Shown piece after piece: positions 13,701-43,991 of a stretch of 64,000 nt of DNA; position 1 is the stretch's first letter; every line of letters begins with the position of its first letter. The notes beneath the pieces were generated by a model, which was not told the DNA's origin, ran no database searches, and saw only the letters and a list, made by a program, of their open reading frames with translations. The stretch comes from Halichondria panicea (Eukaryota; Porifera; Demospongiae; Suberitida; Halichondriidae). The translations under genes were made by a program, and so were the position numbers. The stretch is taken from the NCBI RefSeq assembly GCF_963675165.1, contig NC_087377.1:5146042-5210041 (forward strand), given 5' to 3'.

Positions 13701-16700
13701 AGGATCTTGTGTTACACAGTCAGCATATCAGATAAGATTCTAAGTGGCTCTGGTTGTGTGACGTCAGTCTACTACACTTGATACTTAGATGAGTTTTCTA
13801 GTGCTACATGTACGTCACTATCGATGATATTGTGGTAACCGCATGCGGTTTAGCCATTTGAGTTGCCCCAAATATAGTGGCAAACGTGAGTTTGACCAGT
13901 CTACTGTTCACCATGCAACAGTGACGGTTTGCGAGTCTACGTATTGCACATACTAATGTGATGATGTCATTATTCTACAACATTTGGGGAGGAAGGTTCA
14001 CCCCTGCCCCCCCTACCCCCACTAAATGAAACCCTGACTGTGGGGGTTCATTGTCAACAATTTATTGTAAAGTTGTTACCTTTACCAATAAATACTTTTT
14101 AAGCAAATCATGGCGAGAGGCTTTAGCACAGCGCAGCTTGCACCACTCGTTGTTAAAGGAGTCCGCTTATTGGTGTATGCGGTTTTGCAAAATCACTTGT
14201 CATTGCACACACCTGTACTAAGAGTACACAAAAGTTAGATCGCATTTTACTCATTCACAAATGGTTTTTCCTATGAAAAAACAGTATTAACACTGTACAT
14301 GTATATTACCATTCTTACAGGGGCTAGTTGATCAAAAGGACAATAGGACAGATACTGAGAAACTTCGTGGTGAGCTAGAGGAGCTGACTAAAAAAGCTGA
14401 GAAAGATGCTGTAACTCATCGCCAAGAAGCTGAATATCTTCAAAGAGAGGCCACAAACCTTCAAGCCCAAGTGGAGGACCTCACTCAGAGGTTGAACGAA
14501 GTTACTGCATCAATTAAGGACCTTCAAGAAGTCATTAATGAGCAAGCTCCACCCTCTGCCGACGGTATTCAAGCTAGTGATGAAGGTGATAGTGCCAAAA
14601 TACTGCAACGTATAAAAGGCAAATACCTTGAAAAGGCTACAGAAATTGCTGATTTGAAACAAGAAAATCGAACAGAAAAGGATCAGATGAAACAGCGATT
14701 TGACAGAAAAATGGGTGAGCTAACAGATAAAATCCACGAGAAAGATCGCCAGTTGAAAGCACAACGCTCCAGAGTTAGCCTCCCCCCTACTTCTAGTGTC
14801 GATGATGCTGACGAAGATGAGGAGTCATCCATTGCAGAACTGAGAGCAACTCTCAGAACAAAGGATAAAGAAATTCAGTCTCTTACTATTCAGTTACAAA
14901 CTTTCCAACAAGTGGCGTCTCAGCGACAGCAGTTACAAGAACACAGTAAAGTACAGAGCACTGTTGTGGTACAACTCAAGAAAGAGGTTGCGGCAGCTCA
15001 GGTACACATGATAATTAGTTTTTGAGGTCCGTTATATTTGCTGTATTCACGAATTACCAGTCAAGTTATACATGCAGGATATGCAGGACTGTAATACTTG
15101 TAGTTTCGTATGAGCTAGACCAAAATAATAATATTTTTCGTATAAATTTCCGGTAAGAGTCAATAGCGATTTTAATTAGAGACCGCTCTGCAAAATTTAA
15201 GCGCTCTTTATAATTATGTGTGCCTCGAGGCGTATAGCTACATGATTTTTTGGAGAAGATGCCCACCATAATAGATAAAGGAAAGAGGGATTGGCAATGG
15301 CATCGATCAAATAACCCGGCATCTGTGTTGCCTCGGATTTACTTAAAGTTGTTTTCAAAGAAAATCCAGGCTGGAGACGATTGAAGAGACAGACTATACT
15401 TACTGTCAGTTTAACAATATTGCTGCTGATTTTGCACTTTATTTCCATGCTTGAGGTTTTATGTGACCCAGGAGGACACTATACGCTTTAGAAGAAGAAA
15501 ATTTCCACATAATACCCACCATCACATTCTATTTTATGATTCAGGAGGAACTTCGAGTAGTCAGGGATGTATCAGAAGCCGCCAAAAAAATTGAAGAGCT
15601 CCATCAGACGATAATCAAGTGCAATGAAGAGCTTAGAGACCTCAAGGTACATTGCACTGTAACTACGTACACTATATATCATTGCTGGTTTTCAGAAAGT
15701 GAAGACAGAGGTTGAGGATGACTTGAATATGCTAAAGCTTAAGTGTGAAGCTGAGCAAACAAATCATAATTCTGTGAAGGTATATACAAATGTACATGTG
15801 CATGTGTTCTTTATAAAATGCCGTTAGCTCTTGACTTATAATAGTTATTCAGTGGAACCCATCTATAACGGACACCTTTGGGGAACAATGTTTTGGCATT
15901 TATACAGAGGTGGCCTTAATTTGTTGAGGGGTTGTTTGTACACAAACTGTTCATTTGGGACCTGGGTGCCTGGCCGTTATATAGCCTTTATTCGGAGGTG
16001 GTCGTTAACAGAGGTTCCACTGTACATGTATAATAATATTATTATGTGTCTGTAAAAGTGTTGGCTGATTCAATGGCAGTTAGCATTTGATCATCGTTTT
16101 TTCATCACTGGATCCCTATAGAGAGACCTTGCAAGGTCCCAAAGTGTTATATCATCTCTTACAACTGTTCAAGTGGGAGCAGAAGAAGATCCACAAGAGA
16201 TACAGATACTCACGGCTGAAGTGAATCTGTGTAAGGTATGATGAGTGCATAATTGAGTATTCTTGTTACGTTGTGCATTAATTGACCTCCTCCCCATGCA
16301 TGTAGACTGTACATGTGCATACATACTCTACAGAGAGTATGCTATATGTTGTAACAAGGGCGTATGAAGAGAAGAGGGCATGCATGCAACTACAATCTAT
16401 CGTATTACAAATGGGCGGGGGTTTATGTCTAAGAATGTATTGCACGTGCACTTTATACTCTGACTAGCCTTTATTCCCTAGTGGGCGGTGGCTAAATCAT
16501 GGCTAAATATAGCATATCCTGCTGACTCATCAATAATACGACGCATACACAGTATACATTGTGAGTTGCATGCCCTCTTCTCTTCATACACCCTTGGTGA
16601 TAATTATTATACATGTATGTATGTACACTCCCTATGTATTCCAATAAGTGTTTGTAATGTACACATGTACTAAATTAGAAATGTCAACTCCACAGATTGA

Positions 16701-19700
16701 GGTTAAAGAACATGAGAAAAAAGTGGAGAGACTCAACAACAGAGTCACTGAGCTTGGTAAAGCAAATCTATCGCTGGAGAGAAGATTGAGAGAGTCCAAT
16801 GAAGAACGTGATGTTTTGGCTCTACAAAGTGTCGAGTTGCGTGCTTCTAAACACATCTACAAAGGACAGTTGGATAAGTCCCGAAAAAGCAAAGTGGATA
16901 TCACACAAGAGCATCTCACTCATCTAGCCAGCACAATAGTCTCCAAGACTGATGAAAATGATCAGCTACAAGACAAGATAAAGGCGCTTAAGGAAGAGCT
17001 TGAGTTGGAAAAATTTCAAGTAAGTCCTTTATTTATTTGATGTACTGTATCCTTGTGCATAATTACCCGAGGCGTGCGTGGGCAGGCCACGGGTATTGTA
17101 GTCGTTCGGTTTGTTTGTTTGTTTATCTTTTTGTAATTTATAAGCCTGCTCACCTGGATGCCAATGCACTGCGTTTACAGCATGGATAACCTTCACGCAA
17201 CAAGTTATTAGTTAACAATAGCAAATTGCGATGTTAAAGCTTCTAGAAGCGAGCAAGAAGCACGTTGGCTAGCTCTATCCGCGACTTTTATTCGAGGTAA
17301 TTATTTGGTAAGAATTGTTCATTCAATGCTCCTCAAAATGTAATCATGTACAGTGGCGGATCCAGGGGAGATCCCAGGTGCCACGGATCCCCCATTTCAG
17401 TCTAGCTATTGTGGCTTTACTACAGCTACCAGCTAGCTATTTATCAGTTTTTGTAGCTATTGTAATTTGATTCAATGATTGTCTGTTGTTTTGATGTATC
17501 AACTGCCAAAGGAGTGTTCAGGTTAGCCTAGGCTAGCTAGTTGACTGTTCGTGGCAGCTAACTAGCTCTACGCAAGTATATTATGGGACTTCCCCTGGCT
17601 GAGTATGGGATTTTCCCTAGTCACGTGTGACCGGAAGTGGGCGTAACCCCAAAAATTTCGCGCTGCGCGTTCGTTAGTTTGGAACCCCCTTTCGTTTTTC
17701 CTGGATCCGCCACTGAATTGTATGTGTATACACAGTTCATTGTAAGCATAATTAAACAAGTGTGTACAAATGCGTCCGGGAGATACATGTAGTACCTTCA
17801 TATTGTGAGGGGGAGGGCACTCAATGTGGGCACTCAATGTAAATAAATGTACAGTATGCATGATTGAGTAATAATTATAATTTCAAATCCGTCCAATCCA
17901 GCCTTATAATCGTTGTATACATGTAAGTCTAGGCAATTTTTATTAACACTTCTACTAACCGTTTCTTAAATGCAGGCATTTCAATACAAACAAGACTTTG
18001 AAGAAGAACGTGCTGCTCGAGAACAAACTGTCGGTGCAAAGGATACACTGTCTGATCAAATCAGAGGCTGTATGGCAGAAGCTGAAACAGAGAAACGAGA
18101 GAAGCAAGCTGTGATAGCCAAACTAAAGACCACTGTCACTGAAAAACAACAAATAGCAAAACAAATGACACAAACTGAGAAAGACTTTGAGCTAAACCTA
18201 GGTACAAAGTTACAAGAAATCGAGCGAATTAAAGGAGAGAACACTCAATTAATGGCTCAGATGGAGCACTTCAGAACAGAATCGTCTAAGTTACAGCGAC
18301 AACTGCAAACAGCTGAAGCAACCTATGAATGCAGAGAAGCTGAGCTAGTACAAGAAGTCGATGCACTTAAGAATGAAGTTGCTAAAACCCAAGACAAAGC
18401 TCAGATGGCCGCTGCTATGAAAATTAGCTTAAATGAACAACTCGAAAGTGTCACTCAAGATAGAGATAGTAAACTGAAAAAGCTCGAAATATTGGCTAAT
18501 GAAAAGGTATCTGTTGATGATCAATTGACTCATGAGAGAAACCACAGTGCAGCATTGGCACAAGATCTTGCAGCCAAAGAACAGGAGTTGTCCCATACAA
18601 AACAAAATGGCAACAGGATAGCAGAGGAACTACAAGATGTTCACCAGAGGCTGAAGGTGTCCCTCGCTGACACAGCAAAGTTTCGCGATGAGGTCATGGC
18701 AAAGACGGCTCAAGTGAAGCAGTACAAGAAACAGACAGACAGTTTCAAAGCCAAAGTGGAGGAGGCCAATACTAAACTACTGAAGACACAGCAGGAGCTG
18801 CAGCGTTGTCAAGAGCTCATTAAAACCATGGAAGAGGACAATCAGTATCTGGTAAATTTACTACTGTAACAGTAATCATTAATTTTCTGCATATTCTATA
18901 CACTGTATACATGTCAGTGTTAGAAATTTCTCACTGCCACCGCGGTCATTGACTGGACGTTTAATTAGAATGACCATGCATTCCTGCATGTGTCCGGTTA
19001 GCGTGACTAGGCACAAATGACATTTGACCATACAGTCAATAAAAATTATTTCTAACACTGCTTGTAGGTGTGAATTATTATACACATACATGTACCTGTA
19101 CATGTATGTGTACCTCATGTGCAATCAAGGGTATTATAAGTACACTGTACATGTATCAACGTTTAACAACAGTATTATAGTAGAACTTCGATTATCTGGC
19201 TTGGCAATTTTTTTTTTAATGAATTTATAGTTCAGAAAATAGCGTGTCCCTTAAATGCACATGCGCGTGTTGCAGCTGTTACCATGGAGACAGGCCTGCT
19301 TATTCTGCGCATGCGCAGACAACCATGTGGCACTGCTGTTTATCAATAAAGTGGGTGGATCAAGGCGTGGTTTATCTGTTCGATTATCCGGCATATTCAG
19401 TTATCCGGCCTGCACACCAAGACACCAAGGTGTCCGGATAATCGAGGCTATACTCAGTATTAAATAAACGTTGTACACAAACTGATTTCATATTTTTCTG
19501 AGCCATGATTTTAGAGCAATACACATGTGTTTTTGGTTACACAGATTGAGCAAGCCAAAGCAACTGCAGAGAGCAATAAGCTTGCTGCTGAGATGGATTT
19601 AATCCAATCTCAAAGACGAGTTAAAGCGTTTGAAAGAGAACTACAGGAACTTAGAAACGGTGGGGAAATTCCCGAGGTTGTGAGGATTGAGGTTGACAGA

Positions 19701-22700
19701 CGAATAGAGGTGGAACAAAAACTACTAGTAGCCGAATCAAAATGCAGTGAGCTAATGGACAAGTGCAGTGAGCTAATGGACAAATGCAACGTACGTTTCT
19801 TGTGTAAATTTGTGTCGAGGAGTTTTGCCTTAGATACATACGTGTACATGTACATGTACTATATACTAGCCTCCTTCACCGGCCTTCATAGAAAAGAAGG
19901 CCTGCTATCGACTGCTTGCGCATGCGCCAAATTATTGGGTATTTTTTCCCGTAAAATTTCCTATAATACTGGATTCATCAGAGAAAATATCCTAAAAGTC
20001 ATACACAGAGCTATATAGCTAGCTAGCTAGAGACAGAGCTGTGTAGGTTTGTTGTACAGCTATTTTCTTCTGCAGTAGCAGTAGCATAGTAGACTTTCAC
20101 CAAAGTTAGTGTTAAATGGGCGTGGCCTGTCCATATAGGCTCTTGTCAGCTTTCACTCCGTTCAGACGATCGTCATCCACACTATTGCAGGCTGTGAGTC
20201 TTTTGTTAACATAGCAGGGGCTAAGGGTAGCTATGTTCAGAGAATGCTATCCGATGGGCTAGAAACCTTCAAGCGAACTTTCTATAGACCCTACTTCCTT
20301 CAATCCACTTCCATTCTTTGTGATGTCATAGTTTTACTGAGCATAATACGATGTTATCCAAAGCCCCCAGATACCAGGGGGATGTTAGCGCATGCGCAAG
20401 CAGTCGATACCAGGCCCACTTCCCTAAGTGAAGTGGAAAGTGCGGCCTGGGATCGAGGCTAATGTACTACATGCATGTACATTAGTCTCTACCACTGCAT
20501 GCTGTAATCGTAATTTTCTTATTCCTGTACAGACCCGCTATCAAGCCATTGAGAAGCTGAAAGGATCACTTGCACAGCACTCGATAGCAATTCCTGCTTT
20601 CAGCATTGACAAGGTAATGCTGTGTGCCATCTCAAGCCATTATTCAATGTATGGGACATTTTGCATTTAGGATGTCAGTCTTACTTCTTCCGATCATAAC
20701 AGTTCAATGTACGTATATATACATATATGTTTCATCTAGGATTAAATGTTGGGGGAATGTTTGGGCGCGCGTAAGCACGCCTCAAAATATTTAACCACAC
20801 CCCCTAGCACATGCTGGTGCATCTAAAGTCTATTTGTGTTGAGGTTGACCATCATAATGTTGTCATAACTTTGTTATACTTTGCAAAGTTTCATATACTC
20901 CTTGTTAAGAAGCACTTCTATCTACCGTATAGCGCGAAATTTCAAGGTACTTATATTTTGTGGAATGGCCTCTAAAAGCATTTCGTTGCGCACAATGTTC
21001 GTGGAATGACTGCATGATTACCGGAAGTCACACCTTTAATCTTTACACGTTATAGCAGATAATTCTAATTAAAGAACAATTTGCTAATAAGCTTCAACCA
21101 GCTAAAAGTTACATGTAGCATTTTCCATGTAGAAGTCTCTGGCATACTTTGTCAACCACAAGAAGCATAAATAAAGCCATAATTGAGCACCTAACTTCCG
21201 GGGGCCGAACTCAACGCAAATATACTTTAGTTACATGTTGCACATCATTAGGAGTGCATGAATATATATTCATGCACTCCTGACATCATAAACAGCTAGT
21301 ATACTAACGTGGTGATGTCATTATTCTACAACCTTTGGGGGAAGGGTTTATCTTTGCCCCCCCCCCATTAGATGAAACCTGGTATGTCCATAGCATTATT
21401 GTGATTATTGTAGATTGAGAAGATCCCAGTGCTACCACATCAGTCCAGCAACAGTCGACTGGATTCCCCGCAACACCAACAACCAGTCTCTCCTGTTATG
21501 GTGAGTGTTCGTGCATGCATGTATAAATTGTTTATTAATCTATACATTGTAATCTCAGTAACCTGCTGTCAGTATTGGATGTCACCTTAGACATGCTGTG
21601 TCGGTTAGTACATTTTGAGTGCCTAATTATATACATTTGTATGGCCTCCGCCACACTTCATTTTCACTTTACTGCAGAGGGACAGCCAACTTGATCAGCA
21701 GCAGAGAGGAGGCTACCCTCGAGACAGAGCAAGTTACGAGCAAAGGCAAGGCCCCTCAAATCCAGCCTTCAATACGAACCAACCTATAAGGCGCTCCACA
21801 GAGCCTCAAAACTCAATTCCACCCCATAGCCATGTCCAAACCATACCCCCTAGAGTACAGGAAGATGGTGCTCAGTATTGGGAGGGTCAACGAGCCAGGG
21901 AGAGTAACCGTCAAATGCCCCCCACCTCTCAAGCCCAACTACCAGCTCAGAACAGAATGGATACAGGACCTCCGATACGAGCAAGTGACCCAGGGATTCA
22001 GCACAACATGGGCCAACACTATCAAGGTCAACAAAACCAGCAGATGACAAATGACCCACAACAACAGCCTATGTATCAGTACGAGCAAGGAGGTCAACAA
22101 AACCAACCAATCCAATGGCTAGGTGGATACGATCCCAATCAGCAAGGCGGATACGATCCCAATCAGCAAGGCAGACACAATCCCAATCAGCAGGGTGGAT
22201 TCAATCACGACCCTCGACAGAACCAGCAGTTGCAACAAGGCTATGCTCAGGGTGGACCAAGCTTTAACCATCATGGCCAACAGCATCACCGTGGCCACCA
22301 CCCACCACCTAGAAGCCCCAACTACCAACCACAAGCGCAGAACTATCCGCCCACTAGCTATCCCCAAGGAAATCCATCGCCTTCTTATCACCAGCATGAA
22401 GTCAATCAGAGCCAGCAACCCCCAAGAGGCATGCCACAATCTCAAGCTCAATTTACCCCTCAAAATCCTGTCCAACCACAACAAATGGTGTCACATCAAG
22501 AAAGCCCGCCAACTGGAAGGGGTCAACCAGCTCCTGAAGTTCAACCAACACCCCTACCACGAAGAAACTCTAAAGAAAATTTACCGAACGCACCACGACT
22601 TAAACAAAGCTCGAGCGTGCAGGAAAACATTTTGCTTCAGGGCATAGATCGAGACATCAAAGACGCTGCCAAGTTTGTTATCCATGAAGGGGATGAGTTG

Positions 22701-22820
22701 GAATCGATGGGACCCAATGCTCCGTTTGACCCGAACCTCATCTGTCCTCTGTGTATGCGTAATTTTAGAGTGGGAGAGATTCAAAAGTATAGGAAACATG
22801 TAAATACTTGTCAAGGATAG
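10706..22820 (+). CDS. NEMO/optineurin-like coiled-coil scaffold with UBAN motif and C2HC finger
   Basis: Thirteen phase-0 exons (10706-11137, 11240-12421, 14321-15001, 15545-15646, 15696-15779, 16122-16235, 16696-17019, 17976-18851, 19545-19790, 20533-20613, 20671-20712, 21414-21500, 21678-22820) give 1797 aa. A Ser/Thr-rich N-terminus (1-145) is followed by about 1240 residues of heptad-rich coiled coil. Exon 8 opens with QYKQDFEEERAARE, matching the UBAN ubiquitin-chain-binding signature DFxxERxxRE of NEMO and optineurin (D980, F981, E984, R985, R988, E989). A Q/N/P-rich stretch with GGYDPNQQG repeats (22116-22190) precedes a C-terminal finger CPLC-x14-H-x3-C, similar in spacing to the NEMO ubiquitin-binding zinc finger. 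There is no kinase. It is probably a ubiquitin-reading scaffold in NF-kB-like or selective-autophagy signalling. The start MLKKKNSSQQ was chosen over an in-frame ATG at 10583 because a leader intron fits between them. Confidence 0.8.
12463..12830 (+). repeat. Dispersed repeat with GT-rich core
   Basis: It starts gcctcgaggcgtagccgca and continues with tgtgtgtg/tagactgtgtg runs, and matches 4415-4790 block by block. A further fragment with a similar start (cccgaggcgtgcg) lies near 17066. It is intronic. Confidence 0.5.
12960..13494. mobile_element. TAGCC...GGCTA MITE with 9-bp target-site duplication
   Basis: The direct repeat GCCATCAGA flanks it at 12951-12959 and 13495-13503. The ends read TAGCC and GAGGCTA. 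An internal block (tgtccatat/ctggcaagag, 'ctgaacggagtgaaagct') recurs inverted in the copy at 19867-20461. A 9-bp duplication is typical of Mutator-like elements. Confidence 0.8.
13529..14036. mobile_element. MITE with AGGGTTTCATCTA termini, carrying a nested element
   Basis: The ends are agggtttcatctagg and actaaatgaaaccct. Shared internal blocks (ccacacc...gtagtgc, gatgatgtcattattctac) occur in the copies at 20728-21382 and 34106-34353. The element at 13643-13940 is inserted within it. Confidence 0.75.
13643..13940. mobile_element. 298-bp foldback nested in another MITE
   Basis: Both ends carry the same inverted arm of about 53 bp with two mismatches (gtagactcgcaaaccgt... / ...acggtttgcgagtctac). 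The copy at 34106-34353 lacks it at the matching site (tctagtt/acatattgcac), which gives a natural empty site. Confidence 0.75.
15851..16027. repeat. pogo/Tigger-like MITE
   Basis: The ends read cagtggaacccatctataacgg and cgttaacagaggttccactgta. The internal 'tgtacacaaactgttcatttggga' block recurs near 51640. It is intronic. The assignment rests on the characteristic 'CAGT-GAACC-T-TAACG' terminus. Confidence 0.6.
17351..17715. mobile_element. 365-bp MITE with CAGTGGCGGATCCAG termini
   Basis: It starts cagtggcggatccaggg and ends cctggatccgccactg, near-perfect terminal inverted repeats. No clear target duplication was seen. It lies in intron 17020-17975. Confidence 0.75.
19180..19456. mobile_element. 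pogo/Tigger-like MITE, full copy
   Basis: It starts agtagaacttcgattatctgg and ends ccggataatcgagg, which is inverted. The internal block (tttatcaataaagtgggtgg) is shared with copies at 51017-51274 and 53741-54020. A partial copy lies near 2290-2440. Confidence 0.7.
19867..20461. mobile_element. TAGCCTC...GAGGCTA MITE, inverted copy of the 12960 element
   Basis: It starts tagcctccttcaccggcc and ends ggcctgggatcgaggcta. Subterminal tatcgactgcttgcgcatgc is mirrored at the right end. The internal sequence is the reverse complement of 12960-13494. Its flanks do not give a clean 9-bp duplication. Confidence 0.7.
20728..21382. mobile_element. AGGGTTTCATCTA-family MITE with an inner insertion
   Basis: It runs from tttcatctaggatt to attagatgaaacc. 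A piece of the 151-353 MITE family (taccgtatagcgcgaaattt) is inserted from 20933. It lies in the intron between exons 11 and 12 of the scaffold gene. Confidence 0.65.
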
Positions 22821-23329: not shown

Positions 23330-23686
23330 TCATTGTTCTAACACAGTTCGACACACGTGTTCAGCTAGTTGAGCATCACTCAGTCTCAAACACACGCACA
23401 CTAACGATCTATAAGTGGCTCTAAAGCCGGTCCTTCTCTTCCACAAGTCTAACACTGAAACGGCCTTCATAGCAATGTCCTTATTCTTGTCAGTATCAAT
23501 GTCTTGTATCTGCTGAGGTGACAGTCCCAGTGCATTGGCATAGCTGAGCCAGTTGTGGAGGTGAGGTGCTATCAGTGAGAGAGCCTCTTTAGTGGAAGTT
23601 TGGTCCAAGTGTTGGTCAGTGACTCCAGTGTGCTCCATGAGATGGTCCAGACTAGGAGCCTCGGCTTCAGCTGGGAGGGGGGCGCC

Positions 23687-23717
<31 letters not shown>

Positions 23718-26305
23718 ACAACACAATGCATCCACACCACTTGTATACACAACACAAAACCTCGTGATCATAAAAGGTCACCCTAATAGCAGGTTGAGCT
23801 GTACACCTGCACACTCATAATTAGCTATAGGTAATGCTATAATGCGGATAGAGTGAATTCACCTCTCAGAGCATATCTTGGTCTCCTCTCCACCGCCTGA
23901 GGCTCAATATCTATCACCATGACGTTGGGTTTCTTAGCACCGTCGATGACCAGTTGATAACATAGCTCAGGGATGTTAGGCGTCTCCATGGCGACCCGCG
24001 CCTTGAATCGACAGTGTGGGATTGTAGGGGAGCCAGGTTGGAAATAGTCCACTCTCTTCCGAGTCAGCTGTTTGGGGGAGGAACATTAAAGAGCTACATG
24101 CATGTACAGGTATAGATAATTATAGTGCACTAATTAATACATGCAGTGCGGAGGAGGTTGGACACGCGCCATAATTTGTCAGCATGTCATGTGACATTTG
24201 GAAATGATCTCTTCTGGTCTCTCATAGCTCGCAACTGACATGTACAACACGTGCCATGACCCGTACTATAGCTGTGCTAAAAATCGACAGCTATAAACAA
24301 GAGGGATTCGCGTGATTATTGATGAAGCGTGTCCAATTAACCTCCTCTGCCTGTCATGTATAGTGTACACAAACAGGTAGGATCGAATTGTACAATGGCT
24401 CAATTGGGTTTTGCTATCTGGCATAAATTTTCTAACATTATGTGACTGCACAGTTCATAACAGTGTAGTCACCACAAATAGAACTAAAATGCTGACTCTG
24501 CATATTTGCGGGGTCTTGAAACGTATGCACATGAATCAACCTAAAATGTCCCTGTATCAGCTAGTCTCGAAAAAAGATAGTACAATGTACCTAAGATGCA
24601 TACTAATTTCAAAATCATAAATTCAGTAAAGAAAGCATTAGTTTCACTTTCATCATCAATGCCGTGCACACTACCTCACCTGAGGTGGGACGAGTGATCT
24701 GATAGTCCAGTTACCGACAGGGCGACCCTCGAATGGTATGTCCAGTGTCACTGTGTCCGCCTCAAACTCTATGGGCATATACGGACCCACCACCGCCCTC
24801 CGTCTAGTGTATGACCTCCCAATGCACTGATAGAGGAGAGAGAGAGGCAGAATGTTAAAGTGAGCATACATGCACGACGACGTGTAATTTGTAAAGAACT
24901 ATAACTAGTGTTGATTACACCAAATAGAAAAACTGCACGTATTATTTTAGCCTAATGTTTGTTTAGGCTGGACTTCTTTGTGCCTCAACAATGAGGAAAA
25001 GAATGTACATGTATATGGAAAAAGAATCACAAATGTTTTCTTTCTCTGAATCAGACAATAATATTCAACCAAACCAAACTACATGTAAATCACTGAATGG
25101 TTGTGGTACTATCCCAGATCAGCCATGGACCAGACAATGATCTACCTCAACAATAATTATTGTGGCCATAAAGGCTACCAGAAATGTATAAGTAGTTGGT
25201 AAATTGTAATGCAAATACTCTACAGACTACTAATAAAGCAAGCATAATACACACACACATACAGACACACACCACAACTCACTGTGTTATAAACCTCAGT
25301 GTCTCGGTTGACCACGAGATGAATCTCCCAGCTACGAAGTCCAAGTCCGATATAGTAGAGCCCAGCTGTGTACAGCATCTCCGCACCGCCCTCGGCAGTG
25401 ATAGCAAAACCAGAGAAATGCTCCAACTTTATCAAGCCAAATCTACTCTCCTCTGAAAACACCCCTCTTCCATCTAGCTTAGTGAACGTGTACGGTAGCT
25501 TCTCCTGCGTGCAAACTGCTCGAATAAAAGACAGGTTTTTGCGGTGAGATTTCTGAGCACAGTGTTGTAGTTGAAGCGTTACAGGCTGAGTGAATTTGCA
25601 GTAAGGGATTGGTCTGATCCAATAGATAGCGCTGACTAGCTCGTTATTGTCGGGTAGTTTGTATTGCCCTGAGAGACTGACGTAAATCTGCAGGACACAG
25701 TGATCGATTTCAGGGGGTAGCGTGTTGGGGGGTACGTTGATTTCCAGTCCGTGACCGTCCCATTTGAAGCACTGTGCTGATCGAGTGATAATAAGGGTGG
25801 TTTGACCTATGACCTCCACACCAGGCAAATCTGTATGGGAGAGAACATTTAAAAAAGCTACATGTAGACTTAATTGTCTACCATTATACCCTCCCGAGAA
25901 AGTGAATTGCAATCTGTACAGTGTAGATATATAATGATTATGAAATAGCAGCTAGAATAATTATGATGGGGCAGAACATGCTAGATTACGTAGAAATCAC
26001 CCTTGAGCAGACCAATAGTGGCTGTAAAGAAGAGAGGTGGTCTGCTAACACAGGTCCAACATGCTATGGAGATATTTTGAGGCCCATTAACTGAAGTGAC
26101 CCGCTTACAGTGTGACCAGAAATTGACACGTTTCACTGTAGGTACAGCCTCCAACACTCCACTTACTTATAGCTCCTCTATTCTCGGGAGGCTGGTCCTC
26201 TCTCTCCCCTGCAGTGTGTCTGGCCCTCAGAGCAGTGACCTGGGTCTGCAGCTCAGTCAGAGTTTGCTCTATCTTAGCACGAGAGGAAACCATCACCTTG
26301 CGTGC

Positions 26306-26349
<44 letters not shown>

Positions 26350-29300
26350 GCGTGGTGAGAGAGGTGGAAAGAGTGAAGCGGGTCACACCTTAATACTACA
26401 ATCATGCTTGTATATTACCAGTCCTGTATTGTGCAGAGCACTAGACTACAGTGGGTTGTCACCCTTGGAAATCTACATGTATACAGTAGGCTGTATACAT
26501 GTAGGAGCAAGTCTTAGAGTATAATTATAAGAGTAGATAAGAGTACTCTTATATACTCTTGGTAGGAGAAATAACAGCAAACAGGATTTATAATTCTATC
26601 AAAGCAATGTCAAGGACTTCTGGCCTACAGTACGGACCTTCCTTTGGGGGAAGAGTTAGCAATGTACATGTAGATTACATTGACATTGACATGTACTGCA
26701 TGTAAGTGCCAGTTCTCATACCTTCTCCAAGTTTTGAGCTAGTCCCATTTTCTCCTCTTCCAACAGCCGATTCTCGTTAACCAAACGGGCAATCTGAGGA
26801 GGATGGGTAAAAAATGGGTGCCATTACATCACACATTGCCTTCTGAGATTTAAATTGTTCTTTAGGAAGAAGTGAAATCACGGGATCGAATGAAAATAAT
26901 AGGGCATGTGATTATGAGACTAACATGGCTGTATTAAAAGAGGTGACCTACGAACACTAGACAATGGTGACAACGATATAGAGACTTTGAGGAGCCTAAT
27001 AAAATGGCTGCATTATATAGAGAGTGACATCTGTAGGATGACCTCAATAGATATAATAATTATTATGTGGTAGGGAGGAAGGAAGGTCACTGTAATGTGT
27101 TTGCATTGTTAAGTACACTGGTACTGAATGTAAAGAAGTAAACGGTAAAGATCAACAAAGTAATCAATGCTCTCTATAAAGGTCAATAATGACTTTGAAA
27201 ATCGATGACCCTTTACCGATTGCAAAGCTACTAGCTATTGCTACATGATAATTATACATGTACATGTAACTAGAGCAACACCAAAATAAAAAACTGATTT
27301 AGACATCTACTCAGTACAGTCCCCTACTCAGTACAGTCCCCAAAACTTACTGTCACTCACAACTCACAACAATAATCTTTATAACTCAGGTACAACAATA
27401 TCAAATTCTAAAACAACAAAACTTCTCAAAAAAAAACACTTCACATTTGGTCCACTATATTTTACTCAGCACACGTTCTATGACCAGCAATACCTCCCTC
27501 ACCTCTTCATCATTAGCCTCCTCCCTGGTCTGCAGCGTCTCTCTGAGCTCCCTCAGGCTATCATCACTCGCTGTCAGCTGACCCTCCTTCTCTGTCAGCT
27601 TGGTCTGAAGGCGTTTAAATTTCGCCTTCTCTGACTTCACCTGATTAAGAGAGGGCCAGGGAAAAGTTTCAATTTAACAATTGTGAATCATCACTATAAT
27701 TATTTTATGCATAGACAACAGAGACTAAGGAAATATTCAACTGCACCAATTGCAACCATCAAAAGTTGCTTTACAGCCATGCAATTATCTCGACACTATT
27801 CAATGGGACAGTTCAGTTATACATGTACATGGCAAATACATGCATGTACAGTCATGGAGTTATAGGGAACGCCTACATACATGTACATGTACATTGTCAT
27901 GTATAGCTATATTGCATGCTGCAGCCATTGAATACGTACAGGTACAAGATTGTATGTAGCTAAGAGTATCACCTCCTGTTTATTAGCCAGCACATCGTCA
28001 TGGAGACGTGCTGTGTCAGCAATGGTAGTCTCTAGTCTAACGCGGTCTGTCTGCATATCATTCCTTAGTTGAAGATTGGTGACCTTTTGACCCTCACACT
28101 CCTTGACTAGAGTAGCGTTCTCGGCTGAAGAGAAAGGTCACTATTATAGAGCTACAAAATACATTGACCGTTCATACTATAATTGGTGTGTATGTATAAC
28201 CACAGTTTTTTTTCTGATAGTACGAATAACTGCTAACAGTGTCTACATAAATTATAATTATAAGCGAGTGTTAGTACAATGTAGAGTGCAACAGTACACA
28301 CAGTGAGTACAGAATGCTAACTTGTCAGTGTGGTGACTTGGTCCCCTGCCAGTTTGAACTTGTGCTCGAGTCGTGAGTGCTGTTCCACCATCCCTTCTCT
28401 ATGTGTGACCATGGCCACCATCTCTCCCCTCAGGGCCTCCAACTGGTCAGCCAGCGCTCGTCTCATCTCCTCTGATGCTTTGAACTGGTCCTCTGACACC
28501 TGCACCCCCGTTAGTTGGGACTTGTCCTCCTAGGGGGAATGGGGGAGGTCGGATTAGACCAATTATTGGGAGCGTAATTAAAAGCATCGAAATGAGTGAT
28601 GTGTATAATAATCATTATTCATTATAATTATATAGGCATAAGGTTCTCTCTTGCTTTCTTGTTTCCACACATGCCGATTTTTCACATTGCAAAAATAATT
28701 CTTTGTAGTAAAATAAAATCAAGCTTCTCGAGTAATTCAGAATGACAACAAACTAAAGTAACTGCTAACAAAACCAATAAATTACTTGTCAGAAGTACCT
28801 CAGCTGTGACATCCAGTATGTCAGCGAATGTCTTTGGGTACTCATGGATGCAAAGGTCAGCCAGCCTCTTGTTGAGCTCCTCTGCAGGGGGTCTCCTAGC
28901 CGGGTTATCATGGAGACACTCGACAGCCAATGGGTGGAGAGGATGCTTCTCTCCCATCGTCTCTAACGCTTTCTTTCTCTTTGCTATCTCCATTAAACCT
29001 ACAGAGGGAGCGTACATGTACAAAATGATGCCTCGATTGTTTGCATTATGGTGGGTGAAGTATACATGTAAGCAATAAATTCTGTAAATATTGTTACCCG
29101 AGAAAAGATAAATGTACCACTACGGAAGGAAAAGACAAATAATTATAGGGGCTCGGAAGAAAATAACTGACCAGTTTTTGTATCCTAATTAAATTTCCAT
29201 CACATGTTACAATGTTAGACATATTGGTTACCATGCAGAAACATACTAGCAATGCAATAACTACACACAAAGCACACCCACCCGTCCGCCCACACACACA

Positions 29301-30010
29301 CCTTGCTGCATAGCTACATGGTCGTTCAACTCGTACACGGGTGGCCAGTCTTGAATAGAGATGTGCACGAGCAGGTGCCCAAAACTGAACACATCCACTG
29401 CAGTGCCGTATGTAGGGCTCTCCACTTTAGTCTCCGGGGACATGTAGTTAATGTTTCCAGGGGCTACAGTCTTCGTTACCAAATGAGGATTGCTCAGAAC
29501 TTTCGAAACTCCAAGGTCGGCAATCTTTGCCCTAAGGTCGCTGGTGAGGAGGACGTTGGGAGCCGTGAGGTCGCGATGAATTATGGGTGGAGTCTGAGTG
29601 TGGAGATAAAGTAGACCATAGGACACGTCCAACATGACAGAGGTCTTGATGGGGATGGGGATGTGGGCATGGACACGAACAAAAGCCGCTACGTCCGAGT
29701 GCAGTTTTTCCATGACTAGAGCTAGATCAATGTTTGACTCGAGGTAGCATACGCCAATAAAACGCACAATATTCGGATGTTTTAGACGACTCAGTAAAAG
29801 GCATTCGCTCCGAAACCTCTTCTCTATGTTGTTCTTGTCTTCTTTGGAGACGTTTTTGACTAGAATGGCGTGCAGACGTTTGGCCATACACGGCAGCCCG
29901 TTCAGAGTGACTTCAAACACGACGCCATACGCTCCAGAGTCGAGATTCTCCACAGTTTTTGGTTTGAGACCTTGAACATTTTGTAGAACGTATGGGCCTA
30001 GCTCGTCCAT
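23330..30010 (-). CDS. RIPK-like kinase - coiled coil - ZU5 - UPA-like - death domain protein
   Basis: Eleven exons on the minus strand (30010-29302, 28998-28799, 28529-28322, 28124-27973, 27640-27503, 26793-26722, 26296-26167, 25830-25283, 24826-24680, 24067-23863, 23685-23330) join with matching phases to 954 aa. The kinase (1-300) has loop LDSGAYG, K44 (CMAKRLH), E69, HRDLTAPN (D147, N152) and D165-L-G167; LDSG and DLG are also seen in RIPK1. Residues 304-536 are coiled coil. Exon 8 holds a ZU5-like domain (FKWDGHGLEINVPPNTLPPE...). Exons 8-10 continue into a UPA-like region (FSGFAITAE; WEIHLVVNRDTEVYNT). The last 118 residues are a death domain (NWLSYANALGLSPQQIQDID...AVSVLDLWKR). ZU5-UPA-death is the layout of UNC5 and PIDD, but here a kinase heads it. 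It probably transmits death-domain oligomerisation to a kinase. Its head faces the small gene at 30450. Confidence 0.85.
24145..24352. repeat. MITE related to the 9112-9229 element
   Basis: The left end 'ggaggaggttggacacgcg' is mirrored by the right end 'cgtgtccaattaacctcctc'. It lies in an intron of the kinase-death gene. Confidence 0.55.
26301..26354. repeat. (GT)n microsatellite abutting a splice acceptor
   Basis: The GT run with GC interruptions reads as (CA)n on the coding strand and ends at the acceptor GCAAG of exon 7 of the kinase-death gene. A second GT run at 23697-23717 sits just upstream, in transcript order, of the death-domain exon. Confidence 0.85.
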
Positions 30011-32463: not shown

Positions 32464-35400
32464 CTAGTTTGCTTTGTTCAGGCAAGTCTTATAGTGACTT
32501 CTGTAGTCCTGTATCTCACCCACTCTAAACTTTTGGGCGCAAACTGGGCACACCAGGTTAGGGTCGAGAGGTGGCAAATCAATGGAGGATTGTTGAAAGT
32601 TAGGTTGCCAGTGCTGGTCATAGCCCGTAGCAGTGCTAGCATACATTGACCAATCGTTACCTTGAACTGCCGAATGTTTCTCCGACGTCTGGCTATTACC
32701 AGCTGTTGATGACGACGAGTTTTGATATGGTTTAGAAGTTTCGAGTGTATCGGGTTCAGAATCTGGTGTGATGATTTGGAAACGTATATCACCAGCGACG
32801 TTTGACGATAATCGTATATTCTCGTACAAAGGTGGAGAGGGGTCCGAGTGTTGACGGAATTTTGATCGTACTGGTAAAGGGTCATTAGTTCTACTAGTGG
32901 CGTACTCATCTTGGGAACGATATGGATGCCTGGATCGTGTGGGAGAGGGTGTCCTTGACCGTATCTGCATTGACTGCATGGCCCCATCAGGGAGCTGATA
33001 GACTCTGTGGTAATGGGAGAAAAGTATAATTAGAACACTCGATTTTTGTAAAAAAAATTAATGACTGAATTCATATTAGTAGACAGACCCTAACCAACCA
33101 CAGTACAAATAATTATTGCAACTTGTATTAGTTAGCCAGTGACATAATTTAAAATACACACAATGCACAAGTAAAGATTGTTTACTCTAGTCTAAATTGA
33201 GGCCACAGGTACCGTACCTTCCCTCTGGAATAAAATTAGTTGGTCTCTGTGGCTGACGTAGAATCGGTGAGGCTGTCTGTCTCCTCTGTGGACTAGTGTC
33301 AACCGTAGTATCAGGAGCGGACAAAGATTGATCAAATCTTGGTGGAACACGCTCGTACGGATGGACACTACTGTCTTCGACACGAACGTCTTTGTTAGGA
33401 TTAGAACGAACCCTGCTGAAACTTTGATGACGAACAGGTGGCCGTGGACTAACATCACCTTGAGGTAAATCCAAGTTGGATTTCGATATTGCGTGCGATC
33501 GATCCCTAGTAACTGGAGACAGTGTGTGAGGTTGTTGAGATGGTTCAGGTCTCGAGACGGCAAAATCGTGACGTTGTCTAGACAACTCTTCACCAGTAGG
33601 ACGACCACCAAAAACATCACCCAAGTATCCTTCATCTCCCTCAGCCAGTAGTAGCTTTCCACCTTGGTTCCTAAACTTAGGCGGCAGTGTCTTTGAATTA
33701 CTCGCTGACAATGGAGAGTATTTGATCGTCGACTCTGTGCTTGCTCGATTTCTCATCGGAACAGTTGGATGAATATCGGGTGGTGTGAGAAGAGTCACCG
33801 GAGCTTGACTAGGATTGTAGTGTGCTGGATTCACTACTGGTGATGTTGCCTGGGGAATAGTCGCCAAGGTTGCATAGTATTGTTGTCGGCTCGATGCTTC
33901 GTCTCGTATGTTGACATACATGTGTGCGGGTGAGGGAAGTTGTTGGTGGTCAGGACACTCTTTGGGTTCTACGGAGTCCGGTGGGAAACTGAGAGAGTGC
34001 TGCAAACTCTGTGAGTGATCGTTGTAATATAATGTACAGGAGTATTATAATTATCATATGCAGCAATGAACCACATGCAGGGAGATATGTAATAATCAAG
34101 CTGCACAGGGTTTTATCAAATTGGGGGAGGGGGGTTTGGGCGCGTGTGAGCACGCTGCAAAATGTTTGAACCACTCCCACATTTGTTGACCACACCTCCT
34201 ATTTCATGCTAGTGCTGCATCACAGTAGATCTAGTTACATATTGCACAGTTACTAATGTGATGATGTCATTATTCTACAACATTTTGGAGGGTAAGCTGA
34301 ACATTTTGGAGGGGAAGGTTCACCCTTGCCCCCACTAAATCGATGAAACCCTCATACATGTACATGTCAGTAACACCGTAGCACAAGAAACAATAAGAGC
34401 ATATGTAAGTTTTGAGGCTCCGAAAACATTATGTGATTGTTGTAAGATTAGACGCTGTGATTTCAATCGGATTGCTCGTACCTCTACCAAACACAGATGA
34501 ATTGTGCAATACAAAAAAAAATGCAACACTATAATTATTATAGCTGCTCACATAAATTGCAGTATAATAATTTTATTGCGTATACATTTCTAGCACTATA
34601 GTTTGACACATGTCCCTATACGTACAGTGGTGACCTTACGTATTGTACATCGAACAAACTATTGAATAACGTACGGGCTGTGAAGGGAGGCTGTTCCAAC
34701 TGTGTGGCAGTGGTGCCACGGCTGCGTCTTCTCTGCTAACTGTCCTATAAGTGGAATAGGTGCAGTGAAGTCTATTAATGTACAGCATGCAATACATGCA
34801 CCGCAATGTGGTGGGAGGGTGGTAAAATAGATGATTATAGTCTAATAATCATTGCTGTACGATCACAGGAGTACGTTTGTACTAAACATTTACGTATAGT
34901 CAGTTAGTGTTGGAATAATAATATAATCGTTAATAGAAGAAGCTACTGGTCCATTACACAGTTATGCAAACATAATTTACTGCACAGATAACCAAGGCTA
35001 AAACACTCTAAGTAAACAAATTAACCTCTGTTTTTCCTCCACGAGCCGTAGTCGTGACAACAGATCCTCTTTCTCTCGCTGTAACTGTGACACCTCATTG
35101 TTCTTCTTTCTCAGAGCAGAGTGGAGCTCCTACCAGTGGAAAAGTACAATTGAATAAGTGCCACAACTTTCATGGCCGGAATAAACAACAATAAAAATAA
35201 TATGATTGTCTTTTCTAGGTACTACATGTACCTTAAGGTGACATATTTTCGCGTGTATTAATTTCTGCTATTTCTGCGAATGAGAGTAAAATCGCAAAAA
35301 TTAGTACTCGCAAATAATTGGCCGCCCTCTTGTTTAATGTATCCAGATCGACATTTCGCAAAAAATTATACCGCAAAATGTACAAAACTGTAAAAACGCA

Positions 35401-38204
35401 AACAAATCTACCTGTGAAAATAATTATGTCACCTTAGGATTATACACGTAGGAAATAATCACTGATACGTCATTCGAACAATGCATAATATATATGTATC
35501 ACTATGGAAAGATCCACTATGACAGTTACATGTACTCTGAGCTACGTGTACAGTGACTACTCGGTCACCATAATTTTGTATAATGGACCCCCTCGTTAAA
35601 AACTAGACCACGTCACATGCATGATTGATACATGATCATTTTACATGTACGTATGACTTAATATGCCAAGTTGAAAGTGAATTTGAATTAAGGAGATTCC
35701 CTTTGAACAATCTTGAACCATGCAGCCCTATAGTGTCTTCCCTTTGAACAATCTTGATCACATGTATGACTTAATTATGCCTATAGTGTCTTAATTTGCT
35801 CTTACGGTGGATTAGGTTATAATTATACCTCCACTTGGTGTGTTCTATCTGAGAGCTCGTTTTGTAGTGACAATCGTTGGCCCTCCATATCCGCCAGTTT
35901 AGAGTGAGCCGTTTCTCTGTCCTTCCTCTCAGACTGAAAGTCATCTCGGTACATCTGAGCCTGAATAGTGTGTGTGGGAATAGTAAAAGTATGATACATC
36001 ATTGTCAAGCGCACAATGTATTAGGATCATTGTCAAGCACACAATGTATTAGGATCATTGTCAAGCGCACAATGTATTAGGATCATTGTCAAGCGTAACT
36101 ATTATAAAAGTGAAAGTGCCTTGAAATGCTACTGTATGCTCATCTGTTACCTCAGCACACATGCAGAATCTCAGTGTAACAGACATATTAATTTGGGGAG
36201 ATAATTTTGGCCTTTTTCTAAGGGCCCGGGGGCTGTTGTCACTCACTGCCAGTTGGTGTGTTTCTATCTGAGTGAGAATGTCAGTCCTCTCTTGTTGGAG
36301 CTGTTCTATCTCAACGAGTTGTCTCCCAGCCAAGTCAGACAGTTCCCTCACTCTGGCTGACGCAGTGTCCTGAGGAGAACAGGTACACATTAGTTATTAA
36401 CGGGATAGTCTAAAGTGTCATTATTATTATTATAATACAGAACAAAAGTGAAAACTCAGAACTATACGACTAAGCTCTCAAGTTGCCTGTGCACAAGGCT
36501 TAGTAAGTGCGCACCTTTTCTATACTGCATACTCTAAAATAGCTATTAAAAAATCAAGAATGCATAACAATACTATACAACATAACTATATTGAATGTTA
36601 CATTCATACATGTATAATGCTGTACCGGCACATGTGTAGCATGAGCGGTCATGAATAATCCCCACAATCCAGTCACAGTTTAACTTAGGATTATTCACAC
36701 AAGCTCCTGAATGATCTTACTACCCACACACCCACAAGGTTTATCGAATTTATTGGCCTATCTAGTTACAGTCAAGAATGTGTTAGCAGGAAATCATATG
36801 AAAACAATCCAGCTATAGCAATTTAAGTCAGGTCAGGACACAGCAAAATGAAAGTTGTAACTTTCAAAAACAAATAACACATTGACATGTAGGCTCCATA
36901 TAATCCCTGTACTGTAGCTATAGCAACATCTGCAGGTGAGTCTAAGAGAAAGCTGTTACATTGAGACACAATATAGTCCTGAACAAACATCACATTGTTT
37001 TCATTGTTTAGGAAACTTGACATTATTTTAGATCACCAACAAACGCTCTATATACACTGTAGCTATTATTATAGGAACACTTGCATGAACTCTGTGAAGA
37101 CAAAGCTGTAGCCTCAGTTATTAGTCTAAGATATGTAGTTTTCATAAGGAACCCAAGCATATCGATCACCTCTAATACAAACTATACATAATTATATGTA
37201 CAGTACAGGTAGACAGTACATTGCATATAATAATCTACGTATCAACAAGGAAGCAAGCAAGTACATCATTAAATGCAATCTAATTATACACTCACCTCAC
37301 TTGCTTCCACTTGATAGATATCTTCCAGTTGCTTCGGGTGCTTCATGCTTATCTCGTTCACTCTCCTGTTGAACTCAAATGTGGTTGGACGATTCTTAGG
37401 GTTGTCTTGGAGACAATCCAACGCCAGATCGTACAAGCAGTGATCTTTTCCCATACCATTATCGAGAGCCGATCGACGTTCGGCTATTTCCGTTTGCCCT
37501 GGAGCAATCGAGAGATGATCGGTCACCTTGTACAGTTTTGGCCAGTCTTGTATTGCAATATGGATTATAAGGTGACCAGCTGAGAAGATATCTACACTCG
37601 TACCGTACACAGGATTTTGGGTCTTTGTTTCTGGAGCCATGTAGTTCACATTGCCTGGGGCAGTCGTGTGTTTAATTAGATTAGTGTCCATTAGTACCTT
37701 CGAAACTCCGAGGTCGGCAATCTTTGCCCTGAGGTCGCTGGTGAGGAGGACGTTGGGAGCCGTGAGGTCGCGATGAATTATGGGTGGAGTCTGAGTGTGG
37801 AGATAAAGTAGACCATAGGATACGTCCAACATGATGGAGACCATGATGGAAACGGGTAGTTTTGGGTGAGACTTGACAAACGCCGCAGTGTCAGTGTGTA
37901 AACGTTCCATGACCAGAGCAAGGTCGTTCTCAGATCGACCGTAGTGCACTCCAATGAAATGGACGATGTTCGGATGTTTTAATTTGCTCAAGAGCATGCA
38001 TTCATTCCTGAACTTGGACTCCATTGAGACTCTCTCGTCATAAGATACTTCTTTGACTAGAATCTGGTGCAGACACTTTGCAATACATGGTAGACCATTG
38101 ACAGTGACCTTGTAGACGACACCAAATGCACCATGGCCTTCCTCTGTCCTTAGTGAGCCCTCTAACCCATCCACTCGCTGCAGTAGGTATGGAGTTAGAT
38201 CCAT
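32464..38204 (-). CDS. RIPK-like kinase fused to NEMO-like UBAN coiled coil and C2HC finger
   Basis: Seven exons (38204-37296, 36369-36247, 35960-35829, 35129-35026, 34744-34675, 34008-33218, 33004-32464) join in phase to 889 aa. The kinase (1-300) has an intact loop (G23-HG-AF-G28), K43 (CIAKCLH), HRDLTAPN, DLG in place of DFG, and MAPET. Exons 2-4 are coiled coil. Exon 3 reads YRDDFQSERKDRE, a match to the UBAN signature DFxxERxxRE of NEMO and optineurin (D351, F352, E355, R356, R359, E360). About 400 Ser/Pro/Gln/Arg-rich residues, probably disordered, lead to the C-terminal finger CPVC-x14-H-x3-C after DPNLV. Kinase and linear/K63-ubiquitin reader would thus be one protein. The start MDLTPYLLQRVDGL aligns with the paralogue at 30010; an upstream in-frame extension runs through a MITE and is dismissed. 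Confidence 0.85.
34106..34353. mobile_element. AGGGTTTCATCTA-family MITE, short copy
   Basis: It runs from agggttttatcaaatt to aaatcgatgaaaccct with the family's inner blocks (tgagcacgctgcaaaatgtt, gatgatgtcattattctac). It lies in an intron of the kinase-UBAN gene. Confidence 0.7.
35232..35437. repeat. MITE with TTAAGGTGACATA-type TIRs
   Basis: The left end cttaaggtgacata and the right end tatgtcaccttag are inverted copies. The interior is rich in 'cgcaaa' words. It lies in an intron of the kinase-UBAN gene. Confidence 0.65.
35997..36097. repeat. 32-bp tandem repeat, about 3.2 copies
   Basis: The unit 'catcattgtcaagcgcacaa...' recurs as gatcattgtcaagc[ga]cacaatgtattag. The copies differ by single bases. 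It is intronic, next to the UBAN exon. Confidence 0.85.
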
Positions 38205-38657: not shown

Positions 38658-38727
38658 AGTTGGGCGTGGCCCCACCCTGGACGCGAACGTAGGCGTTCGC
38701 GTCCAGGGTGGGGCCACGCCCAACTAG
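38658..38727. mobile_element. 70-bp perfect palindrome with 9-bp TSD
   Basis: Arms TAGTTGGGCGTGGCCCCACC... mirror each other completely apart from the centre. The direct repeat GGTTCCTTG flanks it at 38649-38657 and 38728-38736. It interrupts the inverted kinase piece between FGQDIKQGT and SLVMEQ. Confidence 0.9.
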
Positions 38728-41685: not shown

Positions 41686-43991
41686 TCAGTTTCCATCGCA
41701 CTTGTTGACATGACCTCTGTACAGTTGTATTTCTCCGATGCGATACTGCTTCATACACATTGGACAGATCAGGTTGGGGTCTAGTGGAGCACCCTCCCTC
41801 TCTCCTTCCTTCCTCGTCACCTGACTCAATGCAGCAGCTGCCTCACTAATCTCTCGATCTATGCCTTCTTGGAGGACGTTGGGTTTGACAAGAAATTCGG
41901 AACAATTCGGATTTTGAGTTTTGTACTGCTGAGGTTGCGGACTATCAATAGGATAGTTGCACGCTTGTTGTTCGGCACCTTGGTAACGATGGCCCTCCCG
42001 TTGAGAATTAGGGTTACACCAGTGAGGTCTCTGGTGCTGATCATTTGACGGTCCATAATTCTGTTGCTGTGGGTTATAGTGTAGTGACCGTGGCTGTTCA
42101 TCCTGAGGAGGACCAGGCTGTGCTGTCTGCTGCTGGTAGTAGTGGTCTTGCAGGTATGGTTGCTGGTTCGGCCATTGAGAGGGGTGGTTACTGGGTGGTA
42201 CATTCCGTGGCTGTCCTGGTTGTGGCTGATTCTGAAACTGGTAATGACCTTGTGGCAAGTTATCAACGCTGTTGACTGGATCTTGATAGCTACCTCCTTG
42301 GTGAATGTTAGCAGGATAATGACTTTGATTGAAGTCGAAAGGCACGGAGGAAGGTCTCTCCAACTGTTGAATGCCCAAAACCGGTACAGTCGGTTGTATA
42401 CGTTGTTGCAATTTACGATCGGATTCTTGTCGTTGTAGATGAGCACCTGGGGTAGGCTCGTAGTGGCGGCTTTTACCCGAAACAGTAGAATGTTTTCTTT
42501 GGATATTTCTGTGCTCGCTGATTAGTTGCTAGATTAGTGCATGAACATAATTATATAACTGCAATTTTAGTTCTAGTTGCTTATATAATTATAGATCATA
42601 TATTAGTGAGCACTCACTTGGCTTTGTGTATTTAGCTGTTTCAAAGGTTCGATAGAGTTTGATAGCTGCTGCAAATGTGTTAAAAGAGAATGCTTTTCTT
42701 TCCTCAGCTCCTCCACTTGAGATTGTACCTGAGACAACAGAAATTGAATTTAGCGAGTGCATGGGTGTATGTTGTCAAACCCTTCCAGAACATAACTTGC
42801 TTATCAAGATAATGTGGCAATGACCAACTCAGCCTCGTTTCCAGGCCGATTAAACATATCAGCAGCAACATCACCTGTTCATTTTGCATTTGCATTGCTT
42901 TCACTTTGCTATTCAGCTCTTCTACAGTTGTAATCTTGGTCCGGAGTTCTTCCTGTATTTTCAAGTAAGGATTATTATGATTACTTTGTTTAAACGTATA
43001 CCTTCAATGCCTGACTTTCAACCATGATTGTCTCATTTTCAGCCACCAGTGATTTGTTTTGAGCATGCATCTGTTTCCAATCTTTAATACCCAGCTCAGT
43101 TATCATCTCCTTAAGCCTTTCAGTGCTAGGTCTCCTCTCTTGTCGGTCCTGAAGGCAGCCTTTCACAATATCTCGAAGGCAATGGTCGGCAGGCATCATA
43201 TCAAACCATTTCTTGCGTCTCAGGATTTCGATCTCCCCGCGCTCAAGTGCAGCTTGCAGGTTGGGACTGTGTGATACATTGAACACTTCAGCAAACTCTT
43301 GATGAATGGTACAAAGGCATAATGCTCCAAAAGAAAATACGTCTAGTGCTTTTCCATAAACTGGTCTTTCTTGCAAAGCTTCGGGAGGCATGTAAGCTAG
43401 TGTACCTGGGCATTTTGTTTGAGAAGCCAGCCTGTTGGGACTGATATTCATGATTCTAGAAACACCAAAATCAGCAATTTTCGCTCTCAAATCTTTCGAT
43501 AATAAGACATTCCCTGTTGTGAGGTCACGATGAACTACGGGTGGATTCTTAGTGTGCAAATAAAGCAAGCCAGTGGTAACATCAAGCAGAATTGAGAGCT
43601 TTTGATTGATAGGAACATTTTTGTTGTTGCTCAAATATTTGTCGAGGTCAGTATCAAGCTTTTCCATGACAAGGGAGACATCAAATTCTATATTAGTCGA
43701 GCCAAAATGGATACCAACGAACTTGACAATATTGGAATGGTCTAGCTCACTCAGCAACAAGCACTCCTCGTAGAATCGCGCATAAATACCTCGTTTCTCA
43801 TCACGCCTAACATCTGGAGCAATCAACACACTGTGAAGCTGCTTAGCTATTCTTGGCACACCATCAACCATCACCTCGTACACAGTGCCGTAACTACCCT
43901 CTCCTTTTCTCTTGTTGGGGTCATTAAGCCCTTGAACATTTCCAATTTCAAATCTTGAAAGCTGACGCTGTAGAGTAGTTACCTGAGCCAT
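41686..43991 (-). CDS. RIPK-like kinase - coiled coil - Q/P-rich - C2HC finger protein
   Basis: Four phase-0 exons (43991-43002, 42952-42875, 42728-42618, 42528-41686) give 673 aa. The kinase (about 15-300) keeps G30-EG-SY-G35, K50 (RIAKQLH), HRDLTTGN and, unlike its paralogues, a true DFG (IADFGVSR), then MPPEA. Coiled coil covers about 300-395. A Q/N/P/H-rich region (about 400-600) leads to LQEGIDREISEAA and the C-terminal finger CPMC-x14-H-x3-C after DPNLI. No UBAN motif was seen. The start MAQVTTLQRQ has a good context (cacaATGg). The open frame continues a few codons upstream to a possible acceptor (tattcag, about 44019), so a further 5' exon cannot be ruled out. It is convergent with the broken kinase gene. 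The probable role is ubiquitin-responsive kinase signalling; substrate unknown. Confidence 0.82.

Follow-up and report, generated by a model that had tools for sequence, protein, structure and literature searches.

In vertebrates, ubiquitin chains activate immune kinases via separate reader proteins, and kinase and ubiquitin reader are separate proteins in both the IKK-NEMO and the TBK1-optineurin pairs. NEMO carries a UBAN coil and a zinc finger that is reported to be ubiquitin-binding (PMC10694592, PMC11854354). Here we analyzed a stretch of 64,000 nucleotides (the window) from the sponge Halichondria panicea, positions 5146042-5210041 of contig NC_087377.1 (hereafter C1) in a genome of 131 Mb and 39 contigs. 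A first-pass annotation of this DNA had proposed that one of its genes, here called W1, joins a kinase to a NEMO-like ubiquitin reader in a single protein. We find that a kinase, a UBAN coil and a C2HC finger encoded by one gene is the best reading of the locus, judged from its splice structure and from relatives that repeat the joining of a kinase. Parts, order and in-frame GT-AG splicing of the earlier proposal stood, and joins to a kinase recur in relatives, whereas the spliced transcript is still a prediction.

W1 occupies window positions 38204-32464 on the minus strand. Its coordinates, the introns at 37295-36370 and 36246-35961 and the protein length of 889 amino acids (aa) were all exact on re-reading. 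The model comprises seven exons and six GT-AG introns, of which four interrupt the frame in phase 0 and two in phase 2, and the frame runs unbroken to a stop ending at 32464. Its parts are as follows.

37296..38204, minus strand: W1 exon 1, predicted TKL-like kinase domain, aa 1-303, closed by the phase-0 donor GAG/GTGAGT (the slash marks the exon end)
36370..37295, minus strand: W1 intron 1, 926 bp, the join on which the fusion hinges, with an AATAAA and an ATG inside
36247..36369, minus strand: W1 exon 2, coiled coil preceding the UBAN motif, aa 304-344
35829..35960, minus strand: W1 exon 3, UBAN motif YRDDFQSERKDRE and the coil after it, aa 345-388
35026..35129, minus strand: W1 exon 4, coiled coil, aa 389-423
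34675..34744, minus strand: W1 exon 5, beyond the coil, aa 423-446
33218..34008, minus strand: W1 exon 6, linker with no clear Pfam match, aa 447-710
32464..33004, minus strand: W1 exon 7, linker and C-terminal C2HC finger DPNLVCPVC-x14-H-x3-C (finger at 32467-32574), then the stop

To place the join at intron 1 among the other splice sites, we used site models whose training set was limited to 16 donors and 17 acceptors and did not include intron 1. Results showed that its donor is strong, ranking in the top 0.85% of the window's 8072 GT sites. In the two nearest kinase paralogues the kinase exon likewise closes on GAG/GT at the corresponding position (GAG/GTAAGT and GAG/GTACTT), while a more distant kinase has a low-scoring TTG/GTGAGT at that place.

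Relatives of W1 were sought with a UBAN profile applied to the window and to the genome stretches examined. It marked 21 places at E<1e-5, 12 of them rows of the profile itself; all but one of the 21 lie on C1, and at 12, W1 included, the finger follows in the same orientation at a distance of no more than 7 kb. Two genes of the window are needed for the comparison.

41686..43991, minus strand: W2, kinase-coil-linker-C2HC finger, with exons at 43991-43002, 42952-42875, 42728-42618 and 42528-41686
10583..22817 (approximate, limits of open reading frames, ORFs), plus strand: a long putative gene of coil, UBAN, coil and finger exons with no kinase domain; UBAN ORF at 17970-18866, finger ORF at 21627-22817

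W2 sits 3.5 kb from W1 on the same strand. Its three introns are short, at 49, 146 and 89 bp, and each is in phase 0; its linker is glutamine-rich and its finger is the same as that of W1. The locus C1:3820499-3830767 holds a kinase 59% identical to that of W1, the best-scoring of the candidates outside the window. Behind it on that strand come a UBAN match (E 1.3e-12) and then a finger match (E 1.5e-20), neither of which is a row of the profiles used. From exon 3 onward (exons 3, 4 and 5, then the UBAN, coil and finger exons), the long window gene is matched by the coil exons of this locus, and its exons 1-2 have no match there (E 1e-4, 16.5 kb searched), as though replaced by the kinase. The opposite order is seen at C1:5019986-5021672, where the kinase comes last, after one coil exon whose UBAN motif is degraded and a second coil exon; the two introns, of 49 and 102 bp, are in phase 0. 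A midpoint-rooted tree of ten kinases, in which three of seven inner branches are unresolved and from which the copy C1:3831851 was left out, grouped W1 with two paralogues (100/100), resolved two further groups of three kinases (100/100 and 100/99) and left W2 alone. These relatives suggest that a kinase was most likely joined to the coil-finger family more than once, perhaps eased by exon ends that are mostly in phase 0.

Several observations weigh against a single fused transcript. The acceptor of intron 1 is mediocre: it falls in the top 9.9% of 8035 AG sites, and all but one of the 17 training acceptors outscore it. Within the intron lie an AATAAA (36754) and, in frame with exon 2, an ATG (36390). 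Six UBAN-finger pairs of the genome (C1:4950276, 4959657, 4983628, 4996618, 5001870 and 5006857) have no upstream kinase match in the 4.6-14.9 kb examined. At the C1:3820499-3830767 locus, the kinase and the UBAN exon are 6.8 kb apart, and the kinase (C1:3829871) has no ATG at the place equivalent to the start of W1. The features of intron 1, the kinase-less pairs and a stop only three codons beyond the donor in the kinase frame could be explained by a pair of neighbouring genes, one encoding a kinase alone (frame end at 37287) and the other a short protein of UBAN and finger that begins at the ATG at 36390. Against this stand the strong phase-0 donor that closes the kinase exon, with GAG/GT also there in the two nearest paralogues, and the gene W2, which links kinase to finger through introns of only 49-146 bp. 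Moreover, the start of the second protein would fall in a pyrimidine-rich stretch ahead of a plausible acceptor, and the protein would be without the longer N-terminal coil ORFs found upstream of other UBAN exons. We regard two genes as unlikely, and a fused W1 transcript, as predicted from the splice sites, as likely.

The N-terminal kinase of the first-pass annotation was confirmed. Residues 23-277 of W1 match protein kinase models in Pfam (PF00069, E 8.4e-34; a second model, 1.6e-33), and the motifs of an active kinase are all present, namely IAK at residue 41, HRD(L) at 144, DLG at 164 and APE at 190. Its description as RIPK-like was not confirmed. Among the 60 listed of 435 matches to solved structures, CTR1, TNNI3K and ROCO4 came first, followed by WNKs; the sole RIPK was ScRIPK (8ho6), a plant protein, and no animal RIPK appeared. 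This ranking does not bear out a specific kinship with RIPKs, and Pfam likewise gave neither a Death nor a CARD nor a RHIM module over the whole protein. The kinase is classed here as TKL-like, with no finer placement claimed. The family is large, with at least 133 matches in the genome at E<=1e-20 (130 of 798 candidates scored). A scan of prokaryote genomes found the peptide pattern of the kinase in 14 stretches, none of them a relative. A separate large kinase array was also noted at C3:868093-2455444, where kinase frames sharing about 40% identity with the W1 kinase cluster by the dozen, many as open frames of 450-590 aa. Immediately upstream of W1 (window positions 38474-39260), fragments of kinase sequence occur on either strand around a long inverted repeat that is visible by eye near 38660-38730.

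The coil of W1 comprises residues 304-446, and its motif begins at residue 348. By our own alignment, D351, E355 and R359 of W1 correspond to D311, E315 and R319 of NEMO, and one report associates changes at these NEMO residues with ubiquitin-binding defects (PMC11854354). When the coil alone was compared with the Protein Data Bank (PDB), with no selection by motif, the UBAN of ABIN-2 (5h07) came first (E 6.3e-4) and ABIN-1 next (E 0.1-0.2). A family profile of 12 UBAN rows, all taken from this genome, gave 21 PDB matches at E<=0.1, of which 20 were chains of OPTN, NEMO, ABIN-1 and ABIN-2 (E 4.3e-9 to 1.3e-6) and one, 4r0r, was an entry of another name (E 0.015); all 12 rows had been chosen by motif and nine coincide with CC2-LZ places, so that this profile is not independent of the motif. 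The CC2-LZ model of Pfam counts on the other side: its curated cut-off is 35.3 bits, and the coil alone reaches 23.3 (E 8.7e-5) and the full 889 aa 18.2. Across the genome it matched 14 places at E<=0.001, none above that cut-off. The UBAN assignment of the first-pass annotation is supported by the two PDB searches, though it stays under the Pfam cut-off.

A UBAN origin leaves room for the fusion to be real while the coil merely dimerises the kinase, ubiquitin binding having been lost and the motif being an inherited remnant. Also weighing against a working reader, W2 lacks the motif altogether, and in C1:5019986, the tightest of the coil-kinase genes, it is degraded to DFEDERAANE (R to N); at C1:5145310, a coil exon adjacent to a kinase, E has changed to A. 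Since the motif is lost or changed in W2 and in these two other kinase-bearing genes, the coil may act only as a dimeriser in some relatives. In W1, however, the motif is whole, including the residues that align with D311, E315 and R319 of NEMO, changes of which lead to binding defects according to PMC11854354, and for W1 itself we consider a purely dimerising coil improbable. That the string is a chance resemblance within an ordinary coiled coil, as the sub-threshold Pfam score and the weak scores of other coiled-coil models might suggest, is very improbable considering that the window, read in six frames, contains two copies of DF..ER..RE and 100 dinucleotide shuffles contain none, that ABIN-2 heads the solved matches obtained without motif selection, and that the same finger follows 12 of the 21 UBAN places.

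The C-terminal finger is present at residue 862 of W1 as C-x2-C-x14-H-x3-C with a DPNL lead, and is conserved in paralogues. The finger of NEMO is spaced C-x2-C-x12-H-x3-C. The C2HC finger of the first-pass annotation therefore stands, but its NEMO-like spacing does not, there being 14 residues here. Pfam returned the kinase, a sub-threshold CC2-LZ and no NEMO-type finger model at E<=1 for the 889 aa, nor did that model appear at this threshold in the five fingers scanned; a NEMO-type finger was rejected on the lack of a model match and the different spacing. No model reached its Pfam cut-off in any of these five fingers, the UBZ models staying below theirs (UBZ_FAAP20 at 12.7-17 bits in three of the five, cut-off 25; zf_UBZ at 12.6 in one, cut-off 25.6). 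A finger profile found weak matches among solved structures (polymerase kappa, E 0.0075; pogo element, 0.084; TAX1BP1, 0.11; ADR1, 0.13; CALCOCO2, 0.18; FAAP20, 0.68), with UBZ fingers among them at 0.0075 for polymerase kappa, at 0.11-0.31 and at 0.68 for FAAP20. Since the solved matches are weak and no Pfam model exceeds its cut-off, ubiquitin binding by the finger is only a guess. A search of the genome with the finger found 24 places, including that of W1, all on C1.

Further kinases and readers lie within the window and along C1.

3154..4071, plus strand: kinase, frame broken past 3981, downstream of the UBAN coil exon just outside the window (C1:5145310, E to A)
23333..30004, minus strand: paralogous kinase, 64% identical to that of W1, followed by coiled-coil ORFs, ZU5 (ORF 25223-25951, E 5.1e-5) and Death (ORF 23333-23767, E 9.7e-9)

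The second of these sets is possibly a kinase-coil-ZU5-Death protein. The presence of ZU5, Death and CARD domains agrees with animal DNA. The long window gene, which has a kinase 14 kb upstream and a transposase frame between, was counted neither as fused nor as kinase-less, and the UBAN-finger pair C1:4927865, with a kinase about 5 kb upstream on the same strand and an opposite-strand finger between, was treated likewise. The transposase frame (window 5870-8743, plus strand) is open over 958 aa and contains a MULE transposase domain; the kinase at 3.2 kb lies on one side of it and the long UBAN gene on the other. Three same-strand pairs have a UBAN exon followed by a kinase (C1:4917017/4921918, 5026596/5030366 and 5145313/5149225); in the corresponding stretches C1:4917017-4922745, 5026596-5031157 and 5145313-5150109, two of the three kinase frames have no Met before the kinase fold, and these are possible reader-then-kinase genes. 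A kinase, a UBAN exon and a finger in order on one strand (C1:3176159, 3164716 and 3158308) were not counted as a fusion; the kinase frame stops soon after the fold and another plausible start precedes the coil exons (by eye). At window positions 47112-48137 on the plus strand we also noted an open frame of 342 aa whose beginning looks signal-like and whose end is rich in cysteine (both by eye), and which has no Pfam match at E 0.05.

Taken together, the locus leads us to favor, on balance, W1 as a single-chain ubiquitin-responsive kinase, in which a TKL-like kinase would be followed by a UBAN coil of the NEMO/OPTN/ABIN type and a C2HC finger. The coil would dimerise and grip linked ubiquitin, probably chains of the M1 or K63 type, and the finger may supply a second contact. 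Several molecules on one ubiquitin chain would bring their kinase domains together, and the kinases so gathered could phosphorylate each other and then a substrate, conceivably in signalling of an immune type. On the opposite side, models for OTULIN, HOIP-UBA, the TBK1 coil and RHIM had no match in the genome; control models likewise matched nowhere. A broader view, which we hold only tentatively, is that kinases of several lineages have repeatedly been fused with a NEMO-like reader family, in both orders and within a fast-changing cluster, giving a one-protein counterpart of IKK-NEMO and TBK1-optineurin for which the ubiquitin chain would be the direct activating ligand, and that this cluster may have diversified in the manner of an immune repertoire beside a ZU5/Death-linked kinase.

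No description of a kinase-UBAN fusion was found in the titles and abstract openings of papers listed by full-text searches; with most subscription journals outside their coverage, this supports novelty only weakly. A fusion of this kind, occurring in nature, would directly test whether gathering kinases on a ubiquitin chain suffices for their activation. Recurrent joining of one kinase-reader pairing would argue, on evolutionary grounds, that the two work together, and a tandem family of readers with and without a kinase offers a natural series in which the effect of gaining the kinase, or of losing the UBAN motif, could be followed.

Among described systems, the UBZ fingers of polymerase kappa, TAX1BP1 and FAAP20 resemble the W1 finger in appearing among its weak solved matches, but no UBZ model exceeds its cut-off, and the pogo element (0.084) and ADR1 (0.13) score about like TAX1BP1. 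Proteins of the RIPK1/RIPK2 type likewise carry a kinase and an adaptor module in one chain, and RIPK1 shares the DLG motif with W1; they differ in that the Pfam results for W1 hold none of the Death, CARD or RHIM modules, although its paralogue in the window lies upstream of ZU5 and Death. NEMO, optineurin, ABIN-1 and ABIN-2 share with W1 a UBAN coil in which the motif is the same and the key residues align, and in NEMO a zinc finger likewise follows the UBAN at the C-terminus (PMC10694592). In contrast to these readers, W1 carries an N-terminal kinase on the same predicted chain, the spacing of its finger differs, and the N-terminal kinase-binding model of NEMO is not in its Pfam results. 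A functional parallel would be the IKK-NEMO and TBK1-optineurin pairs, in which a kinase is likewise coupled to a UBAN chain reader; there the coupling takes two proteins, whereas in W1 it would take one predicted chain, with a kinase whose best solved matches are of the TKL group.

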